From an uncultured Anaerolineae bacterium (GTDB taxonomy: Bacteria; Chloroflexota; Anaerolineae; Anaerolineales; Villigracilaceae), in the NCBI GenBank assembly GCA_903875215.1, contig CAIQVH010000025.1, forward strand, positions 1 through 64,000: a stretch of DNA of 64,000 nt. Direction: 5' to 3'. The position numbers and the translations under genes were made by a program. The stretch's first letter is position 1. Each line of letters opens with the position of its first letter. Shown here piece after piece: positions 50,584 to 60,744 of the stretch. The notes below the pieces were generated by a model that saw only the letters and a program-made list of their open reading frames with translations, made no database searches and was not told the DNA's origin.

Positions 50584-50587
<4 letters not shown>
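49619..50587 (-). CDS. Glycerol-1-phosphate dehydrogenase-like Fe-ADH family enzyme
   Basis: This 322-residue protein resembles EgsA/AraM enzymes: the NAD-binding 'VGGGLTADAAKYMA' and 'LPTALSVDAFITAASGIR', and metal ligands around 'GITDVMSIATGSWDWKFA' and 'TGHGWPHGDLVGPG'. It is about 20-80 residues shorter than most. The fold is shared with 3-dehydroquinate and 2-deoxy-scyllo-inosose synthases, so a cyclising role cannot be excluded. It overlaps both neighbours by 4 bp. Confidence 0.8.
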
Positions 50588-52328
<1,741 letters not shown>

Positions 52329-52470
52329 TCACATCGCGTGAAGACCACGGCCCGGGTGACGGAAAACAGGTATGGCAGTGAGTGCTTCAGGATCATCCAT
52401 CTAATGAATATCCAGGTGGCAGCGCGGCGTCGGCATTCAGCGCTGGTTCGCGCTGGGAGACGAGGATCGT

Positions 52471-53478
52471 CTACTCACATCCACACGATTGGCGGATCAC
52501 CAGTTCGGTGGGGAGTAGTACTTCGGCTTCGCAGGGTTGGTTGCGAAGGCATTTGACCAGGAGCTGCACGGCAGTCCGGCCAACCTGCTCAATGGGGGCG
52601 CGCACCGTAGTCAGGGGCGGGGAAATGTAACGGGAAAAAGGAACATCATCAAAACCGACGACCGACACATCCTGCGGTACCGAGCGGCCGGCCTGTTTGA
52701 GCGCGGCAATCACGCCCACGGCGGCGTCATCATCCCCGGCAAAGACAGCGTCAAACTCCACCCCATCCAACAGCAGGTTTTCAATTGCATCGCCGGCTTC
52801 CACTTCATCAAACCCGCCACTGGCGATCAAGGCCGGATCAAAGGCAATGTTGTGAGCCTGAAGGGCTTCTCGATAGCCGCGCTCACGCCAATGCGAGTCT
52901 TCGTGATTTTCAGGGCCTTGCAGGTAAACGATACGCCGCCGGTGGTGGACTTCTATCATATGGCTGACCAGCATTTCAGCCCCCGACTTATTTTCGACTG
53001 TGACGAAGGGATAGGGACAATCGGGTGGCGGAGTCTGATGCAGGAGAACCACCGGAAATTCGCGCTCGTAATACCGGCGCAAACTGGCTTCATCCATGCT
53101 GCCGGCAAAGATAATCAATCCATCGACACTGTGCTCGCCAAAACGTACAGATGCCTGTTCATTCTGCCGCGAGTAAATCAGGAGGTCGTACCCCGCTTCG
53201 CGCACGCCCGCTTCAATCCCTTTCAACATGGGTGGGAAAAACGCTCCGCTGATTTCCTGCAATAAGACACCAATCATATTGGTACGGTTCATCACCAGCT
53301 GGCGCGCCGCCGGGTGTGGAGAAAATCCCAGTTGATCAATGGCCTCGCGGACTCGCTGCGCGGTTTCCGGGGCCACCACAGCCGTGCCATTCAGTACGCG
53401 GCTGATGGTGGAAGGCGATACCCCGGCCAGTTTGGCAACTTCAATGATGGTGGCAGGACGATGTTGTTTTGGGCTCAT
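52471..53478 (-). CDS. LacI-family transcriptional regulator
   Basis: This 335-residue repressor has an N-terminal helix-turn-helix ('TIIEVAKLAGVSPSTISRVL') with the hinge 'NPH..AR' counterpart 'SPHPAARQL', followed by a periplasmic-binding-protein-like effector domain (about 65-330). A perfect palindrome TGAAAACGTTTTCA lies next to the -10 box of its own promoter, and an identical promoter/operator precedes the sugar ABC transporter. It should repress both until the sugar binds. A remnant of a second, similar lacI is found at 60004-60080. Confidence 0.95.
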   Translation of the reverse strand: MSPKQHRPATIIEVAKLAGVSPSTISRVLNGTAVVAPETAQRVREAIDQLGFSPHPAARQLVMNRTNMIGVLLQEISGAFFPPMLKGIEAGVREAGYDLLIYSRQNEQASVRFGEHSVDGLIIFAGSMDEASLRRYYEREFPVVLLHQTPPPDCPYPFVTVENKSGAEMLVSHMIEVHHRRRIVYLQGPENHEDSHWRERGYREALQAHNIAFDPALIASGGFDEVEAGDAIENLLLDGVEFDAVFAGDDDAAVGVIAALKQAGRSVPQDVSVVGFDDVPFSRYISPPLTTVRAPIEQVGRTAVQLLVKCLRNQPCEAEVLLPTELVIRQSCGCE

Positions 53479-53484
53479 AAGTCA

Positions 53485-53542
53485 CGAAAAGGTTTTCTGA
53501 AAACGTTTTCACTATTCTATGGGTTTTGCAGCGGCTTGTCAA
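53485..53542 (-). promoter_or_regulatory. lacI promoter and operator
   Basis: On the minus strand TTGACA (53537-53542), a 17-bp spacer and TAGAAT (53514-53519) are followed at once by the palindrome TGAAAACGTTTTCA (53498-53511), with a second, imperfect site GAAAAGGTTTTC at 53486-53497. The 43 bp at 53485-53527 are identical to 60104-60146. Confidence 0.9.
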
Positions 53543-53643
53543 GGACTGGGCGCCAGGCGAGCGAATGCGCGCGACAGTCATCAAAACCACGCTGAATGCA
53601 CCCTAGCTACTGCGTAAAGAAGTTCGCTCAGTGTTCCCTGACC

Positions 53644-53719: not shown

Positions 53720-54913
53720 TCAGGCAGTCGCAGTCGCAGAGATCTTCGGCATCACATGATGCTCGGTGTGATGGTGGTGATTATTCGTCCGCTCGCACTC
53801 GCACGGGTCAACATGCACCGTCACATCCACCAGCGCGGGCAGGATGTGGAACAATTCGTGGCGCACTTCCTCGGCGATGTGATGGCTTTCGTGCGTGGGC
53901 AGTTCGCAATCCACGGTGATGTGCAGTTCAGCGCGCTGACGATGCCCCACCCAGCGGATGGCGACATCGTGCACCGACAGCACACCTTCCACAGCTTCGG
54001 CGGTGTGCTCGACTCGATGCGTGATCTCCGGATCAACCGCGTCCATAATGCGGTAGTACATGTCGCGGGCCGAATTCCAGACGATGACCAGGATCGCCAC
54101 GCCGATGAGAATGCCGATGATGGGATCAAACAACGGGAACCCGAGCCAGACGCCAATCGCCCCGGCCAGCACTGCCAGCGAGGTGAAACCGTCGGTGCGG
54201 GCGTGGTAGCCATCCGCCACCAGCGCGGCGGAGCCAATCTGCTTGCCGATGTTGATGCGGAAAATCGCCACCAGTTCGTTGCCGAAAAAGCCGATAATCG
54301 CGGCGGCGGCCACCCAGCCCAGGTTGGTAATCGGTTCGGGGTGGATGATTTTCATCACGGCCTGGTAAATCGCTTCCAGCGCGCTGAACAAAATCATCAG
54401 GACGATAATCACGCCCGCAATATCCTCGGCGCGGCCATAGCCGTAGGTGAAGCGCCTGTCGCGCGCGCGGCGGGCAAGCGTGAACGCCAGCCCCAGCGGG
54501 ACAGCCGTCAGCGCATCTGAAAAATTGTGGATGGTATCGGCCAGCAGCGCCACGCTGCCGCTGATGTAGACAATCACCACCTGGAAAACGGCGGTAATCA
54601 GCAGCGCGACCAGCGAAACCTTCACCGCCCAGATGCCGCGGTCGGTCGCCAGGGCGGCATCCAGCGCGGCTTCGTGATGCCCGTGCGAATGCGGCATGAT
54701 GGCGTGCTGGATTTTGGCCCACAGGACATCATGGGAATGGTCATGGCCGTGTTCGTGGTCGTGGTCATGTTCGTGGTCGTGGTCGTGGTCATGTTCGTGG
54801 TCGTGGTCATCGTGCCCGTGCGGGTGGTCATGGTCGTGACCGTGGTCATGATGGTGCTCATGTTCCTCATGAGCGTGCTTTTGTTCGTTCTCGTTCTCGT
54901 CGTGATGTCCCAT
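53720..54913 (-). CDS. Cation diffusion facilitator with long His-rich N-terminus
   Basis: This 397-residue metal/H+ antiporter has six membrane helices with metal ligands in 'LADTIHNFSDAL' and 'VADGYHARTDGF' (HxxxD pairs), and a cytoplasmic C-terminal domain. The first ~60 residues are nearly all His, Asp, Glu and Gly ('HDHEHDHDHDHEHDHDHEHG'), a metal-binding tail. The C-terminus carries a second His cluster ('NNHHHHTEHH'). Zn2+ (or Co2+/Ni2+) efflux is likely. It follows the GH5 gene on the same strand but has no evident link to sugar use. Confidence 0.93.
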   Translation of the reverse strand: MGHHDENENEQKHAHEEHEHHHDHGHDHDHPHGHDDHDHEHDHDHDHEHDHDHEHGHDHSHDVLWAKIQHAIMPHSHGHHEAALDAALATDRGIWAVKVSLVALLITAVFQVVIVYISGSVALLADTIHNFSDALTAVPLGLAFTLARRARDRRFTYGYGRAEDIAGVIIVLMILFSALEAIYQAVMKIIHPEPITNLGWVAAAAIIGFFGNELVAIFRINIGKQIGSAALVADGYHARTDGFTSLAVLAGAIGVWLGFPLFDPIIGILIGVAILVIVWNSARDMYYRIMDAVDPEITHRVEHTAEAVEGVLSVHDVAIRWVGHRQRAELHITVDCELPTHESHHIAEEVRHELFHILPALVDVTVHVDPCECERTNNHHHHTEHHVMPKISATATA

Positions 54914-54997
54914 CGGGGGCCTCCAAAAATAAGATGTGGAGGTTATAGGGTTATCTTTTTATCGCGGGAGACCCTCAACCATCGACCCGCTTCGTAC

Positions 54998-56410
54998 TCA
55001 CAGGTGTTTTTTCAGCGTCTCAATCACCGGCGCATTGGGAACGCAATTTTTCAACTCAAACGCGCTGAGCATCTCATCGAGCTGCGTTTCGGTCTTGTCT
55101 TTGAATAAGTTGGAATAGGGCACTTGCAGGAATTGGGCCAGGTAGCCGAACAGGGTGTACTGCGCGAACCAGCGCCGGTCAATCTGGACCTGGAGCCGGT
55201 TTTCCGTTAAATAGGCGTCAATCGCATCTGCGGCATTTTTCAGCGCCCCGGCCACCGACCCGGCGGGCATCTCGCCCTCCCAGTCTGCGGCCTCCTGTTT
55301 GGCTTTCAGGATCGGCTGGATGAGTTTCACGTATTCCGAATCCGGATTCAGGTTGTAAGAACCCATCGACGCGATATCTTTCCACGTCCAGACCGCCCAG
55401 TTTGCCCCGGCAGAGTCGAACACCCCCAGCTGGTCATCCAGCGCTGCGGCGCGATACTGAACCGATTCCGGGTAGCCCGCGTACCAGACCCCAAACTCGC
55501 CGACAAAGATAGGTTTGCGATACTTGAAGGCGCAGCGTGTGCCGCTGTGCATCCCAAACTCAGCAGCCACAATGTCACGGTTCCAGTACATCCCGTCGAT
55601 GATGCCTGGGTACGGCTCCCCGCCGCCGGTGGGCGACATGTAATTGTGGCTTTCGACCACGATATTGTCGTCGAAGGTCACGTCCAGCCCGTCGAACTCA
55701 CAGGCGAAGTTATCCCCCTCCACAAACAGGAGGTGGTTCGGGTCAATTTTGCGAATCGCTTCGGCGGCTTTGCGGTGAACGCTGTTCAAGCCATCCCAGT
55801 TGTAGTTGGGCGAGTCGTAATCGTCATATTGAACGCGGGTGCAGGGCTCATTCATCAGCCCGTAACCGGCCAGGGCAGGATGGTCTTTGTAACGGCGGGC
55901 CATCTCAGCCCACAGGCGCGCAAAACGCTCCTGGTAGTGAGCGGTCTGGTAGAGCAGGATGTGAACATGGGCGTTGTCGCTGTGCCAGTCGGGGTTGTGC
56001 CAGCCCTGGACGGCGTGAAAATCCAGGATGACGTAAATCCCGTATTTCGCGCACCAATCCAGCGCGGCATCGAGGCGTTTGAAACCGGCTTCGAGATACT
56101 CAAAGGGCCGGTCATCGCGCTCGAAGTGGCGGTAGTTGAACGGGATGCGGATGACATTGGCCCCCAGCTCTGCCATCGCCCGGACATCTGCCTCGGAGAA
56201 AAAGTGGTCGAGCAGCCGGTCGAAAAAGAACTGCGCCTTGTCTTTTCCCAGCTTCCGGGCCATGGTGGCGCGAAGATTGTGTTCCGCGCCGACAAACCCG
56301 TCGATGAAATCTTCCATATTCAGCCAGCCGCCCACATTCCACCCGCGCAGGCGGATGGGCTGGCCGGAGGCCGTGACAATTTGGTGGTTTTGGACTTTGA
56401 GGAGTTCCAT
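54998..56410 (-). CDS. GH5-family glucanase
   Basis: This 470-residue protein has 'LRGWNVGGWLNME', 'ANVIRIPFNYRHF', the acid/base Glu in 'GYGLMNEP' and the nucleophile Glu in 'IFVGEFGVW'. These are close to the exo-beta-1,3-glucanase/beta-glucosidase branches of GH5. No signal peptide is seen, so it acts on imported oligosaccharide. It lies 71 bp after the permease gene, so it belongs to the transporter operon. Confidence 0.92.
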   Translation of the reverse strand: MELLKVQNHQIVTASGQPIRLRGWNVGGWLNMEDFIDGFVGAEHNLRATMARKLGKDKAQFFFDRLLDHFFSEADVRAMAELGANVIRIPFNYRHFERDDRPFEYLEAGFKRLDAALDWCAKYGIYVILDFHAVQGWHNPDWHSDNAHVHILLYQTAHYQERFARLWAEMARRYKDHPALAGYGLMNEPCTRVQYDDYDSPNYNWDGLNSVHRKAAEAIRKIDPNHLLFVEGDNFACEFDGLDVTFDDNIVVESHNYMSPTGGGEPYPGIIDGMYWNRDIVAAEFGMHSGTRCAFKYRKPIFVGEFGVWYAGYPESVQYRAAALDDQLGVFDSAGANWAVWTWKDIASMGSYNLNPDSEYVKLIQPILKAKQEAADWEGEMPAGSVAGALKNAADAIDAYLTENRLQVQIDRRWFAQYTLFGYLAQFLQVPYSNLFKDKTETQLDEMLSAFELKNCVPNAPVIETLKKHL

Positions 56411-56481
56411 AGTGGTGGGTGGGAATTGGCGATTGGTAATTGGTCAGTGGCGAGGGTGCGACGCACTCCCGGCGCCAAATC

Positions 56482-57585
56482 CTATTCCTTCGACCCGGTC
56501 AGCTTGATGCCCTGGATGAAGGTCTTCTGGGCAAAAAAGAAGGTGATGACAATCGGCAGCGTAAAGACAGTTGCCGCGGCCATCAATTGGTTCCAGACGA
56601 TGGTTTTTTGCCCCTGGAAGTCTTGCAAACCCAGCGCCATGGTGAAATTCCGTGGGCTGTGCAGGAAGAGCAGCGGCCCTGTGAAGTCGTTCCAGGCCCA
56701 CAGGAAAGTGAAGACGGTAATGGTCGCCAGCACCGGTGTGGAAAGGGGCAGGACGATGCGGGTGAAGATTTGCCATTCATTGGCGCCATCCACGCGCGCG
56801 GCATCGCACATTTCTTCAGGGATGGTTTTGAAGAACTGGCGCAGCAGGAATACATCCCAGGCGTTGGCAAAAAAGGTTGGGATGATGAGCGGCAGGAATG
56901 AATCGCCCCAGCCGAGAAAATCGTTGAAGAACAGGTAGATGGGGATCATCGTCACCTGGAAAGGCAGCATCATGGTGGCGAGGATGATGACAAAGAGCAG
57001 ATCGCGCCCAGGGAACTTCAGGCGGGCAAAGGCATAGGCAACCGGCGTATTCGATACGAGCGTGCCGATAATACTGAAAATGGCAATGATCAGGCTATTC
57101 CTGAAATAGACCCAGAAACTGGCCCCTACGCCTGGGCGGCTGCCACGGCTCATGGCATCGGGGAAATTTTCCCAGCGGAAGGAAACTTCCATGATGGGTT
57201 CGGCAATCCTTTCTTTGCCCCGCTGAAGTTTGTAGGTGAGAATCTCAGCCGGGTTGGCAGGATCCACAAAAGTCCCCACGCCTTCCACGATTTTGATTGC
57301 CGCCAGCTGCCTGAGCGTCCCCAGCTCGGTTTTGACAGTATAGAGCGGCAGTTTTTTGCCGTTAACTTCCACCCGGACGTTGTCGTAAGGCAGCCAGCGG
57401 GGCGGTGAGCGGAAGACATCCTGGTCGGATTTGAAGGCCGTCAGCAACATCCACAGAAATGGCACGGCGAAGAACATGCCAACGAAAATGATCAGCCCGT
57501 GGCCGAGGAGCGAACGCAATAATTGAATGGGTTTTAGCGCCTTGTTGGGGGCTGCAAGGTCGGTGTCCATGGCTTTACCCGGCAT
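56482..57585 (-). CDS. Sugar ABC transporter permease (MalG type) with inserted loop domain
   Basis: This 367-residue permease has six membrane helices and the EAA loop 'CDAARVDGANEWQIFTRIVL'. Unusually, about 100 residues rich in beta-strand pattern ('VRVEVNGKKLPLYTVKTELG' onward) lie between helices 1 and 2, most likely outside the membrane. Such an insert is known in some MalG relatives. ATG 57585 overlaps the end of the first permease by 11 bp. No ATP-binding subunit is encoded nearby, so a shared MsmK-type ATPase elsewhere is expected. Confidence 0.92.
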   Translation of the reverse strand: MPGKAMDTDLAAPNKALKPIQLLRSLLGHGLIIFVGMFFAVPFLWMLLTAFKSDQDVFRSPPRWLPYDNVRVEVNGKKLPLYTVKTELGTLRQLAAIKIVEGVGTFVDPANPAEILTYKLQRGKERIAEPIMEVSFRWENFPDAMSRGSRPGVGASFWVYFRNSLIIAIFSIIGTLVSNTPVAYAFARLKFPGRDLLFVIILATMMLPFQVTMIPIYLFFNDFLGWGDSFLPLIIPTFFANAWDVFLLRQFFKTIPEEMCDAARVDGANEWQIFTRIVLPLSTPVLATITVFTFLWAWNDFTGPLLFLHSPRNFTMALGLQDFQGQKTIVWNQLMAAATVFTLPIVITFFFAQKTFIQGIKLTGSKE

Positions 57586-58528
57586 AATAGGTGAACCTGT
57601 CGCTGACTTTGAGGAGTAGAAGGGTGAAACATAAAATAATGACAAAGAGAATCCAGGCCATCGCCGAGGCGTAGCCCATCTTCAGGAACAGGAAGGCGTT
57701 CTGGTACAGGTACACGGAGTAAAACAGGGTGGAATTCAGCGGGCGTCCCAAATTGTCGCCACCGCCCACAACGTAGGCCTGCGCGAAATATTGGAACATC
57801 CCGATCATGCCCGTAATCAGGTTGAAGAGGGTAATGGGCGAGACCATCGGGATGGTGATATACCACAGACGCTGGAACCAGTTGGCGCCATCCAGTTCAG
57901 CGGCTTCGATCAGGCTGGTCGGCACATCCTGCAACCCGGAAAGATAAATGATAATGGTGCCGCCCATGCCCCACATCCCAAGCAGAATGAGCGCTGGCTT
58001 GGCCCAATTGGGGTCGGCCATCCAGTTGGGGCCATCGATGCCAAGCCTGGCAAGCAGGGTATTGACCAATCCCACCTGTGGATTAAGCAGCCAGAGGAAC
58101 AGGATGGTGCCTGCCACCGTGGGCACGATGGAAGGCAGAAAATACACAACGCGGTAAAAAGCCTGTCCGCGCACCTTCAGGTTAAGCAGGAGCGCGCAAA
58201 GAAAAGAGGCGAACAACCCGAGGGGCACTGCAATCACCACCATATAAATTGTGTTGTTCAACGAGATGAAGAACTTCTGGTCTGAAAAGAGTTTGAGGTA
58301 GTTCTCCAGGCCAACCCATTCAGGCGCTCGTTTGGAGTGGTAGATGGTGAAGCTGTAATACAGGGATACCAGCATCGGGTAGAGTGTAAATGCGAAGAAC
58401 CCGATCAGCCACGGCGAGAGAAAAAGCAGGCCGGTGCGCAAATCTGCCTTGGTGCGCTTCGTCCACACAACCTTGGGAGGTAGCTGGAACCCTAAGATTT
58501 TTCGTTCGGGCACGCCTGGGTTGTCCAT
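57575..58528 (-). CDS. Sugar ABC transporter permease (MalF/UgpA type)
   Basis: This 317-residue permease has six membrane helices and the EAA motif 'EAAELDGANWFQRLWYITIP', which docks the ATPase. It forms a heterodimer with the next permease, whose start overlaps its stop by 11 bp. A strong hairpin stands between it and the binding-protein gene. Confidence 0.94.
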   Translation of the reverse strand: MDNPGVPERKILGFQLPPKVVWTKRTKADLRTGLLFLSPWLIGFFAFTLYPMLVSLYYSFTIYHSKRAPEWVGLENYLKLFSDQKFFISLNNTIYMVVIAVPLGLFASFLCALLLNLKVRGQAFYRVVYFLPSIVPTVAGTILFLWLLNPQVGLVNTLLARLGIDGPNWMADPNWAKPALILLGMWGMGGTIIIYLSGLQDVPTSLIEAAELDGANWFQRLWYITIPMVSPITLFNLITGMIGMFQYFAQAYVVGGGDNLGRPLNSTLFYSVYLYQNAFLFLKMGYASAMAWILFVIILCFTLLLLKVSDRFTYYAG

Positions 58529-58547
58529 AGTCCATACTCCACATATC

Positions 58548-58583
58548 GCGCAGGCCCCAAAGTTTCATCTTTGGGGCCTGCGC
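58548..58583 (-). promoter_or_regulatory. Perfect 15-bp intergenic hairpin between binding-protein and permease genes
   Basis: GCGCAGGCCCCAAAG (58548-58562) and CTTTGGGGCCTGCGC (58569-58583) form a 15-bp stem with a 6-nt loop, 12 bp after the binding-protein stop. Hairpins in this position commonly protect the upstream mRNA and give more binding protein than permease. No T tract follows on the minus strand, so read-through to the permeases is expected. Confidence 0.8.
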
Positions 58584-58594
58584 ACTGAATCGGA

Positions 58595-59890
58595 TTACTT
58601 TTTCATCATTTCATTGAATTTTGGCTCGAACTCGGCCTGAACAGCGTCGAGAGTCGTTTTTGGGTCTGCGCCAGTGTACAGGATGGCCTCCTCAGCTGAG
58701 GAGAGCGCATCGTTCAGCTCGAAGGAAAGCGGGGTGTTGATGACGGCATACGCGTTCGGGCTGCTCATTAAATCCACAAAAACCTGGAACTTGGGCCCCA
58801 TATCCTTGAAACAGGGATCTGCGGCCGCCTTCTTGCTGGTAGGCAGATTGGCGTTGAAGCAAAACTCCTCGGCGACGATGGCGGGCGACATCATCCAGGC
58901 CAGTAATTTGGCGGAGGCATCTTTATTCGCCGCACCAGAGGGGATGACGACTACGGTGCCCTGGTTGACAATTGTCCCGGCCCGTTCAGGGTGGGCGGCG
59001 GGCGGCGGGAAGGCAACCACGCCATAATTCAATTCGGGCTTGAGCGCCGGGATGAAGTTCGGCCCGACCTGCCACTCGCCTTCGACCATCATGGCCACCT
59101 TGCCAGCGTAGAAGGGCGCATCGGGTGAGCCGTATTCGCCAAAGCCAGATGAAAACGCCTGCAGGTTGGTAACGCCATACTTGGTGTAGAACTGCTGTTG
59201 CCAGGTAAGCGCATCTATCATCGCCTGACTGTTGGTGGTTAATTGCGTGCCCTCATTGTTGTACCAGAAACCACCAAAGTTGCGGACGTACAGGTCATTG
59301 TGGCTCCAGGAATGATCAGGAATGAAACCAACCTGCTCAAGCTTGCCATCTGCGCCAACGATGGTGAGCTTGTCAGCGTACTCAACCAGCTCTTCCATGG
59401 TTGAAGGTGGTTTTTCAGGATCAAGACCAGCGGCTTCGAACAAGTCCTTGTTCCAGAACAAGGCATAAGCGTCCGTGCCCCAGGGCAGGCAGAGGGTTAA
59501 TTCACCTTGCTGGCATTGCGAAAGCGGCGCGGGGAACATATCCGCCGTGTCTATGTTTCCGGTTTTAATGGCGCTGGAAAGTTCATCCACCAGCCCTTCT
59601 TTGTAGAATGATTTAGCCAGATCGCCGCCGCTGAGCACGAGAATATCCGGCGGATTGGAACCGGTCAGCGCTGGGAGGACTTTGTCATCTTCAATCGGAG
59701 CTGTCACTTCCACCTTGATGCCCGAGAGGGCGGTGTATTTGTCAAATAACGTCTGGATTTGCTGCGGGTTGTCACCCCACTGGATCCAGACGCGTAAAAC
59801 GGTCGGCTCGGCGGGTTTGGCAGCTCCGCAGGCTGAAAGCATGATGCTCAAAATAACCATGCAGCTGAGAAGGAAAAACGGTTTTTTCAT
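58595..59890 (-). CDS. Sugar ABC transporter substrate-binding lipoprotein
   Basis: This 431-residue protein has a lipobox 'MLSAC' (Cys21) and the cluster B (SBP_bac_1) extracellular solute-binding fold ('VLRVWIQWGDNPQQIQTLFD' onward, 'LCLPWGTDAYALFWNKDLFE', 'AGKVAMMVEGEWQVG'). It captures an oligosaccharide for the two permeases. ATG 59890 follows CAGGAGAAAAAG. A frame extending to 60073 runs into the lacI remnant and is not part of the gene. The mRNA leader from the promoter is about 235 nt. Confidence 0.94.
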   Translation of the reverse strand: MKKPFFLLSCMVILSIMLSACGAAKPAEPTVLRVWIQWGDNPQQIQTLFDKYTALSGIKVEVTAPIEDDKVLPALTGSNPPDILVLSGGDLAKSFYKEGLVDELSSAIKTGNIDTADMFPAPLSQCQQGELTLCLPWGTDAYALFWNKDLFEAAGLDPEKPPSTMEELVEYADKLTIVGADGKLEQVGFIPDHSWSHNDLYVRNFGGFWYNNEGTQLTTNSQAMIDALTWQQQFYTKYGVTNLQAFSSGFGEYGSPDAPFYAGKVAMMVEGEWQVGPNFIPALKPELNYGVVAFPPPAAHPERAGTIVNQGTVVVIPSGAANKDASAKLLAWMMSPAIVAEEFCFNANLPTSKKAAADPCFKDMGPKFQVFVDLMSSPNAYAVINTPLSFELNDALSSAEEAILYTGADPKTTLDAVQAEFEPKFNEMMKK

Positions 59891-60003
59891 CTTTTTCTCC
59901 TGATTTGGGTGAAGATTTACAGATCGGAACGGTTCCATGAACAAAGTAGTTGATTTATATTGGCAGCCTCCTTTACGCAGGAATGATACCCATCCGCCCA
60001 AAT

Positions 60004-60080
60004 GGCGGTTCACCAGTTCGTTGGGGAGGAAAACTTCCGCTTCGCAGGGTGGGTGGCGAAGGCACCTAGTCAAAATCTCC
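60004..60080 (-). pseudogene. 3' remnant of a second lacI gene
   Basis: This stretch aligns without gaps to the last ~80 bp of the intact lacI (52491-52570). On the minus strand it still reads 'CLRHPPCEAEVFLPNELVNR', against 'CLRNQPCEAEVLLPTELVIR' in LacI. Everything upstream of it in the gene is gone, and it directly abuts a copy of the lacI promoter/operator (60104-60161). So an internal deletion removed most of a lacI paralogue while leaving both ends. Confidence 0.85.
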
Positions 60081-60103
60081 TGCCGTTTTCAGCACATGGT
60101 TTT

Positions 60104-60161
60104 CGAAAAGGTTTTCTGAAAACGTTTTCACTATTCTATGGGTTTTCCCGCAGTGTGTCAA
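60104..60161 (-). promoter_or_regulatory. Promoter and LacI operator of the sugar ABC operon
   Basis: TTGACA (60156-60161), 17-bp spacer, TAGAAT (60133-60138), then the palindrome TGAAAACGTTTTCA (60117-60130). The block 60104-60146 is identical over 43 bp to 53485-53527 of lacI. The spacer is only partly conserved, but its length is the same. Control by the LacI at 52471-53478 is expected. Confidence 0.9.
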
Positions 60162-60243
60162 GGAGGGGCGACCAGGGGGCCATACAGCAGCCCTTTTCAG
60201 CATGCTATAATCATTTCACAAAAGCCCAAAGGAGCTGATGAAT

Positions 60244-60744
60244 ATGAAAAGAAATTCATGGATTCTGGCACTGGCAGTCTTGTTGTCGGCTACGCTGGCG
60301 TGCAGCCTGTTTAGTGGACGCAGCGCACCGCTTCCCTCCGCGCCACCCAGCCAGGCGCAGCCGGCGACCGAGCCCGCAACTGAAGCCCAGGCCACTGAAG
60401 CGCAAGCGCCGGAGAATGCACCGGTTGGGAGCGGTGAAGCGAACGATGCGGTGCAAAATTTTGAAACCGAATTCCCTGTGCCGCCCGGCGTCACCCTGTT
60501 TACCGACATGGGCAATGGGTCGATCAATATTCAGGCCAAAATTGAACTCAAGGAAGCAATTTCGTTTTACCGCGATTCTTTTGGCAAACTGGGATACCAG
60601 GAACGTGAGATTAACACGGCCATCACGGAATCCACCTTCAGCCTGGTGTTTGACGGTCATGCCAGTGGCAAGGCCATCATCGTGCAGGGTGTTGACCTGG
60701 GCGGCGGCAATACCAATATCTCGATCCGGTTTGAAGATATTTGA
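60244..60744 (+). CDS. Small lipoprotein of unknown function
   Basis: This 166-residue protein has a lipobox 'ATLAC' (Cys20), then a linker rich in Pro, Ala, Glu and Thr, then a compact ~95-residue domain ('VTLFTDMGNGSINIQAKIEL ... NTNISIRFEDI'). No family is recognised; similar short lipoproteins are frequent in Anaerolineae. AAGGAG lies 3 nt before ATG 60238 and 9 nt before ATG 60244; the latter spacing is better, so it is used. TATAAT occurs at 60206-60211. Confidence 0.75.
   Translation: MKRNSWILALAVLLSATLACSLFSGRSAPLPSAPPSQAQPATEPATEAQATEAQAPENAPVGSGEANDAVQNFETEFPVPPGVTLFTDMGNGSINIQAKIELKEAISFYRDSFGKLGYQEREINTAITESTFSLVFDGHASGKAIIVQGVDLGGGNTNISIRFEDI

Follow-up and report, generated by a model that had tools for sequence, protein, structure and literature searches.

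The sugar ABC transporter operon on the minus strand of the window (the whole analysed stretch of DNA, 64,000 nucleotides) is headed by the relic of a lacI repressor gene at 59991-60161, in which both ends of lacI are significantly matched and stand in the correct order. The relic is real, and it is an ordinary kind of regulatory decay. What changed in this lineage is the loss of the head-of-operon lacI, while a sister copy stays under the same operator. We estimate a probability of roughly 80% for the whole history, namely an ancestral lacI at the operon head, its duplication, deletion of the original, and repression of both promoters in trans by the surviving LacI. The source is an environmental Chloroflexota bacterium, represented by a draft assembly of 38 contigs and 3.77 Mb (98.64% complete, 2.48% contaminated).

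The relic is followed on the minus strand by the genes for a sugar ABC transporter solute-binding lipoprotein (58595-59890, 431 aa, SBP_bac_1), two permeases with BPD_transp_1 matches (57575-58528, and 56482-57645 as the ORF is listed, with an uncertain start codon), a GH5 glycosidase of the Cellulase family (54998-56410), a CDF-like cation transporter named by eye from its histidine-rich sequence (53720-54913), the intact lacI (52471-53478, 335 aa, LacI and Peripla_BP_3), a GH1 beta-glucosidase-type enzyme (50958-52277, Glyco_hydro_1, start codon picked by eye) and a short ORF (50584-51000). Beyond the short ORF the same order continues with an iron-ADH-like gene, a GFO/IDH/MocA oxidoreductase gene and an epimerase-like gene. 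The intact lacI product contains the LacI helix-turn-helix (PF00356, 54.8 bits against a cut-off of 27, residues 10-54) and the C-terminal periplasmic-binding-protein-like ligand domain (PF13377, 133.6 bits against a cut-off of 26.5).

The promoter scan located a -35 element TTGACA at 60156-60161 and, after a 17-nt spacer, a -10 element TAGAAT at 60133-60138, both on the minus strand. This relic promoter (60161..60133) agrees with the consensus at 11 of 12 positions; one weaker plus-strand match (9/12) was also scored. The initial annotation had reported TTGACA-N17-TAGAAT at two promoters and a 43-bp block in two copies. Both reports were borne out: the second promoter lies on the minus strand at 53542..53514, and 53485-53527 and 60104-60146 are equal at 43 of 43 letters. 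The block comprises part of the spacer, the -10 element and two overlapping LacI-type palindromes 13 bp apart. The operator sequence noted earlier, TGAAAACGTTTTCA, is indeed present at both promoters (60117-60130 and 53498-53511), but it had been taken for a single palindrome; in each block a second one overlaps it, which in the relic promoter is AGAAAACCTTTTCG at 60104-60117, 13 bp on. Both double operators end 6 nt ahead of an ATG, that of the intact lacI (promoter and double operator at 53485-53542) in one case and that of the relic (60095-60097) in the other. The 3.77-Mb genome contains six exact matches to GAAAAC[CG]TTTTC, and the exact 13-bp palindrome pair is found in the whole genome only at the relic and intact-lacI promoters. 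Such 13-bp pairs were seen in 25 of the 38 lacI upstream regions examined, paralogues included. In a survey of LacI-family regulons (Ravcheev et al., 2014; PMC4052901), the distances between sites peak at 13 bp; 110 operons have overlapping sites ∼13 bp from each other, and for one of them, E. coli gntKU, the arrangement has been tested.

Past the operators the relic reads ATG TGC TGA (60089-60097), its ATG being spaced like the lacI start codon, and the lacI 3'-end remnant then occupies 59991-60079. The 3'-end match had originally been given as 60004-60080. The homology is real, but the placement was off: the best match is 59991-60064 against 52478-52551 (74 nt, 84% identity, E 6.6e-16 in a search of the own genome), with weaker codon-level homology up to 60079. 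The alignment scores 88, whereas none of 1000 dinucleotide shuffles scored above 28, and the poor statistical support that would have spoken against the match was not seen. A protein search of the genome with LacI aligned 59999-60082 with residues 304-331 (E 2.8e-4). The relic ATG is in frame with the remnant; relic codons 7 to 32 correspond to LacI codons 305 to 330, and cysteine 310 of LacI falls at relic codon 12. The net loss amounts to 894 nt or 298 codons, and with this loss and its ATG-TGC-TGA beginning the relic is without full-length coding capacity. The earlier proposal of a lacI copy with an internal deletion ahead of the transporter is thus supported by ordered end homology, reading frame and start spacing. 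Among 152 family genomes the relic was not found elsewhere; the nearest matches covered merely 26 nt in G010 (part of the operator) and 25 nt in G702. The relic frame stays open past the early TGA (59888-60073) and continues in frame into the binding-protein gene, and a TTG at 60073 is closely preceded by GCAGGAG; this arrangement is probably a coincidence.

Where lacI sits in relatives was examined by scanning named genomes with the binding protein, which gave 79 loci; the best hits bore the titles Anaerolineales, Chloroflexi or Anaerolineae. Further genomes were searched as well. In the relatives' operons a same-strand lacI ends 55-108 nt ahead of the binding-protein start, the distance being taken from where the LacI match stops to a start codon chosen by script. 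An intact lacI directly ahead of the binding-protein gene had been suggested as a check, and it was found in 12 of 14 distinct relatives (L026, L027, L028, L034-L038, L041, L044, L045 and L048), counted at ≥61% binding-protein identity with readable upstream sequence, relatives that are not independent of each other and from which duplicate genomes were removed by hand. Left out of this count were L039, L040 and L043 (the same contigs as L026, L028 and L027, respectively), L042 and L056 (cut upstream), L047 and L049 (under 61% identity) and the more distant loci L051-L054 and L113-L123 (50-57%). Within the distant set a LacI match lies upstream of the binding protein in L116, L118, L119 and L120, and none was detected in the available stretch of the others. 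The order lacI, then binding protein, was also seen in L132, L136 and L138. Of all searches, the nearest LacI came from G041 (79%), a fragmented assembly of 820 contigs with 7% contamination; it ends 86 nt ahead of the start of a like binding protein, which is truncated at the contig edge.

The two exceptions, L046 and L050 (Anaerolinea), carry lacI downstream of the permeases; their binding-protein gene is immediately preceded by a promoter with one palindrome, upstream of which no lacI was found. They come close to the situation that the initial annotation had named as contrary to its reading, a relative with the promoter and without lacI; but they are distant (49% for LacI, 61-63% for the binding protein) and leave the relic standing. 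In L046 and L050 the arrangement is a parallel shift of lacI off the operon head. Since lacI heads the operon in the relatives and in G041, the ancestral order appears to be promoter-lacI-transporter, and the operon would have had this promoter from the outset. The idea that the transporter is only now driven by a lacI promoter was not upheld, as in the relatives lacI comes first and the operator-promoter already heads the operon. Most simply, the relic site would be the ancestral lacI site.

The source of the relic was addressed by comparing its 78 placeable nt with the window's lacI and 37 other lacI genes (three of them duplicates). Identical positions number 60 of 78 for the window's lacI and 48 for that of G041; none of the remaining 36 genes exceeds 42. 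Duplication of lacI, as first proposed, is therefore the simplest source. In a quick tree with SH-aLRT support, the window's LacI joins G041 (support 99), then G010 (98), then G034 (99). The gap after the relic has retained GGAGG[CT]TGCC, which is also present in the G041 gap, and AAAGGAGG was not found around the intact lacI (searched at 52400-53620); the relic site therefore looks like the original one.

In the preferred history the ancestor would have had an operon headed by its own repressor, with promoter and operator, lacI, binding protein, two permeases and glycosidases. Duplication of lacI would have put a copy, complete with promoter and operator, between the genes for CDF and GH1; the original at the operon head would then have lost 894 nt (net) of its middle and decayed; this order, duplication before deletion, is our reading of the sequence. 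The transporter would retain the ancestral promoter and double operator, with a leader of ∼235 nt (predicted from the -10 element) that includes the relic.

An alternative holds that both lacI copies are old, one for each transporter or GH1 module, and that the transporter-side copy decayed while gene conversion homogenised the two promoter-operator regions. A lacI directly before GH1 in L032 and L139 fits such a scheme, and the GH1-side copy might itself be old. The edge of the 43-bp identity is sharp, with only 23 of 40 nt shared just upstream. Some spacer bases within the identical block are different in G041, and this suggests a recent origin or gene conversion and not selection alone. The operon mosaic described below is a further point in favour of conversion. 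However, the 3' remnant lies outside the block and is also closest to the window's lacI, so that conversion would be needed at both ends, and we regard an old pair as unlikely. A second alternative sees the relic as a piece copied in from the intact locus, comprising promoter and 3' end, and not as the decay of a resident gene. It would explain why the two ends alone are present; against it, relatives usually have lacI at this site, the relic shows the order, frame and start-codon spacing of a deleted gene, and the gap after the relic resembles the native G041 gap, all of which makes this origin highly improbable. That the 3'-end resemblance is chance and the block merely a shared operator, as L046 and L050, with no lacI found upstream of the promoter, might suggest, is hardly credible in view of the E value, the shuffle scores, the correct order, spacing and frame, and the lacI genes at the same place in relatives; chance similarity of the remnant was rejected on the first two grounds.

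The operon from 53720 to 59890 is a mosaic, judging from trees and sliding identity. The window's binding protein (81-84% identity, support 99) and first permease (86-91%, support 100) fall with L034-L038, whereas its lacI, GH5, CDF and GFO genes group with G034, and with G041 and G010 where present; the second permease has no well-supported position (branch support 49). Sliding identity locates one switch ∼200 nt inside the binding-protein gene and the other after the second permease, ahead of GH5. The exchanged stretch does not include the relic. As a cause of the relic, recombination of the transporter cassette was considered and rejected, because the upstream switch falls inside the binding-protein gene, past the relic.

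Under the duplication and deletion history, the surviving LacI, expressed from its own promoter with an identical operator, would repress both promoters in trans until released by a sugar ligand, and this is the most likely mode of control. The surviving LacI is predicted to act at both double operators, since the 13-bp pair in its exact pattern is unique to the two promoters and the block is identical throughout (43/43), against 23 of 40 nt just upstream and 60 of 78 in the coding remnant. At the remnant's identity, 43 unchanged positions would have p = 1.3e-5 if independent. LacI binding, repression, the ligand and the transcription start site are all predicted from sequence; the relic's promoter and operator are probably still in use. 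At C31:232078-232089 of the window's own genome (G000; locus L146), outside the window, a palindrome GAAAACGTTTTC stands ahead of another GH1 gene, 72% identical to that of the window. This single palindrome follows an apparent -35/-10 pair (by eye), and the GH1 gene may be a third target of the same LacI. The sixth GAAAAC[CG]TTTTC position, C31:450075, is in or near a permease gene.

Autoregulation was reported for 72% of the LacI factors studied in the survey (PMC4052901), as far as its available text goes. The local autoregulated regulons described there resemble the present cluster in having a regulator beside a sugar transporter and glycosidases, even palindromes and autoregulation; here, instead, the regulator at the operon head is a relic and the sister copy lies ∼6.6 kb away under an identical operator. 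The same part of the survey also treats duplicated regulators in related regulons. There the copies gain new functions, whereas here one copy died and its operator-promoter stayed. The locus offers a possible route from an operon headed by its own repressor to control in trans, with the switch retained. It also comes near to a natural footprint experiment, in which lacI coding function was lost and the promoter-operator remained unchanged, hinting at the bases that matter to the surviving LacI.

The leader was earlier said to contain regulator debris. The lacI remnant is there, but this description is incomplete: the leader also keeps a Shine-Dalgarno-like element, AAAGGAGG (59967-59974), which is common between lacI and the binding-protein gene in relatives and appears to have no start codon at usable spacing. 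The presumed Shine-Dalgarno sequence of the binding-protein gene itself is AGGAG at 59897-59901. Among 40 loci examined, 22 have a gap of less than 130 nt to the end of a LacI match, and 20 of these carry AGGAGG over 25 nt upstream of the binding-protein start; 2000 mononucleotide shuffles gave 0.38 on average and never more than 4. Removal of the duplicate genomes L040, L128 and L131 leaves 19 distinct lacI-to-binding-protein gaps, counting the relic leader, and 17 of them contain the far-upstream AGGAGG; the exceptions are L035 (CGGAGG instead) and L048. It was seen in the gaps of L026-L029, L034, L036-L038, L041, L044, L045, L118, L120, L132, L136 and L138, mostly 68 to 81 nt before the start (105 in L120). 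The element is conserved and the remainder of the gap is not.

AGGAGG was found once in 20 other intergenic gaps from 11 of these operons. In the window's genome it precedes 6 of 13 SBP_bac_1 genes (4/4 of those after lacI or the relic, 2/9 of the others) and none of the 30 permease genes examined (of 55 matches). The combined pattern of AAGGAGG, 42-72 nt, GGAG, 4-10 nt and ATG, which also catches coding noise (L148, L150), was found 613 times in 61 genomes vs. 246 times in the reversed control; in 8 of the 61 (G003, G006, G028, G042, G045, G050, G058 and G060) it was not above control.

A small leader peptide after AAGGAGG was rejected, as no start codon follows consistently (by eye), and a known structured RNA was rejected because a search of 59700-60300 against Rfam (E up to 1) found nothing. 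No common structure was obvious by eye in single-sequence folds of 17 gaps, and no intrinsic terminator was found in 59850-60300.

By analogy, the AAAGGAGG element resembles the STAB-SD mRNA stabilisers. STAB-SD stabilises cry3A mRNA through binding of the 30S subunit, as described in a review (PMC4113751). Both are Shine-Dalgarno-like sequences far upstream; the cry3A element lacks a start codon after it, and by eye none consistently follows the present one. The cry3A element is a 5' mRNA stabiliser, whereas the present one, a putative stabiliser, is usually intercistronic, just after lacI. We tentatively suggest that an untranslated Shine-Dalgarno sequence widespread at the lacI-to-binding-protein junction of Anaerolineae could dock the 30S subunit and protect or boost the binding-protein mRNA separately from the regulator, a reading we hold to be somewhat doubtful. 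Ribosome standby and termination-reinitiation after lacI are alternatives. If the docking reading is true, the relic leader is a natural test, with lacI gone and the element retained. Open-licence papers yielded no mention of this locus, nor of an untranslated Shine-Dalgarno element from Anaerolineae. The element is the more general lead, and if functional it would make dosage control inside Chloroflexota operons testable.

Two minor features lie at the borders of the cluster. A 168-aa lipoprotein-like ORF without a Pfam match (60238-60744, plus strand) diverges from the relic promoter. At the other side, the first part of the short ORF 50584-51000 (138 aa) matches a gene of ∼334-358 aa in L030, L037 and L038, with the remainder missing, and this second gene of the cluster looks truncated.
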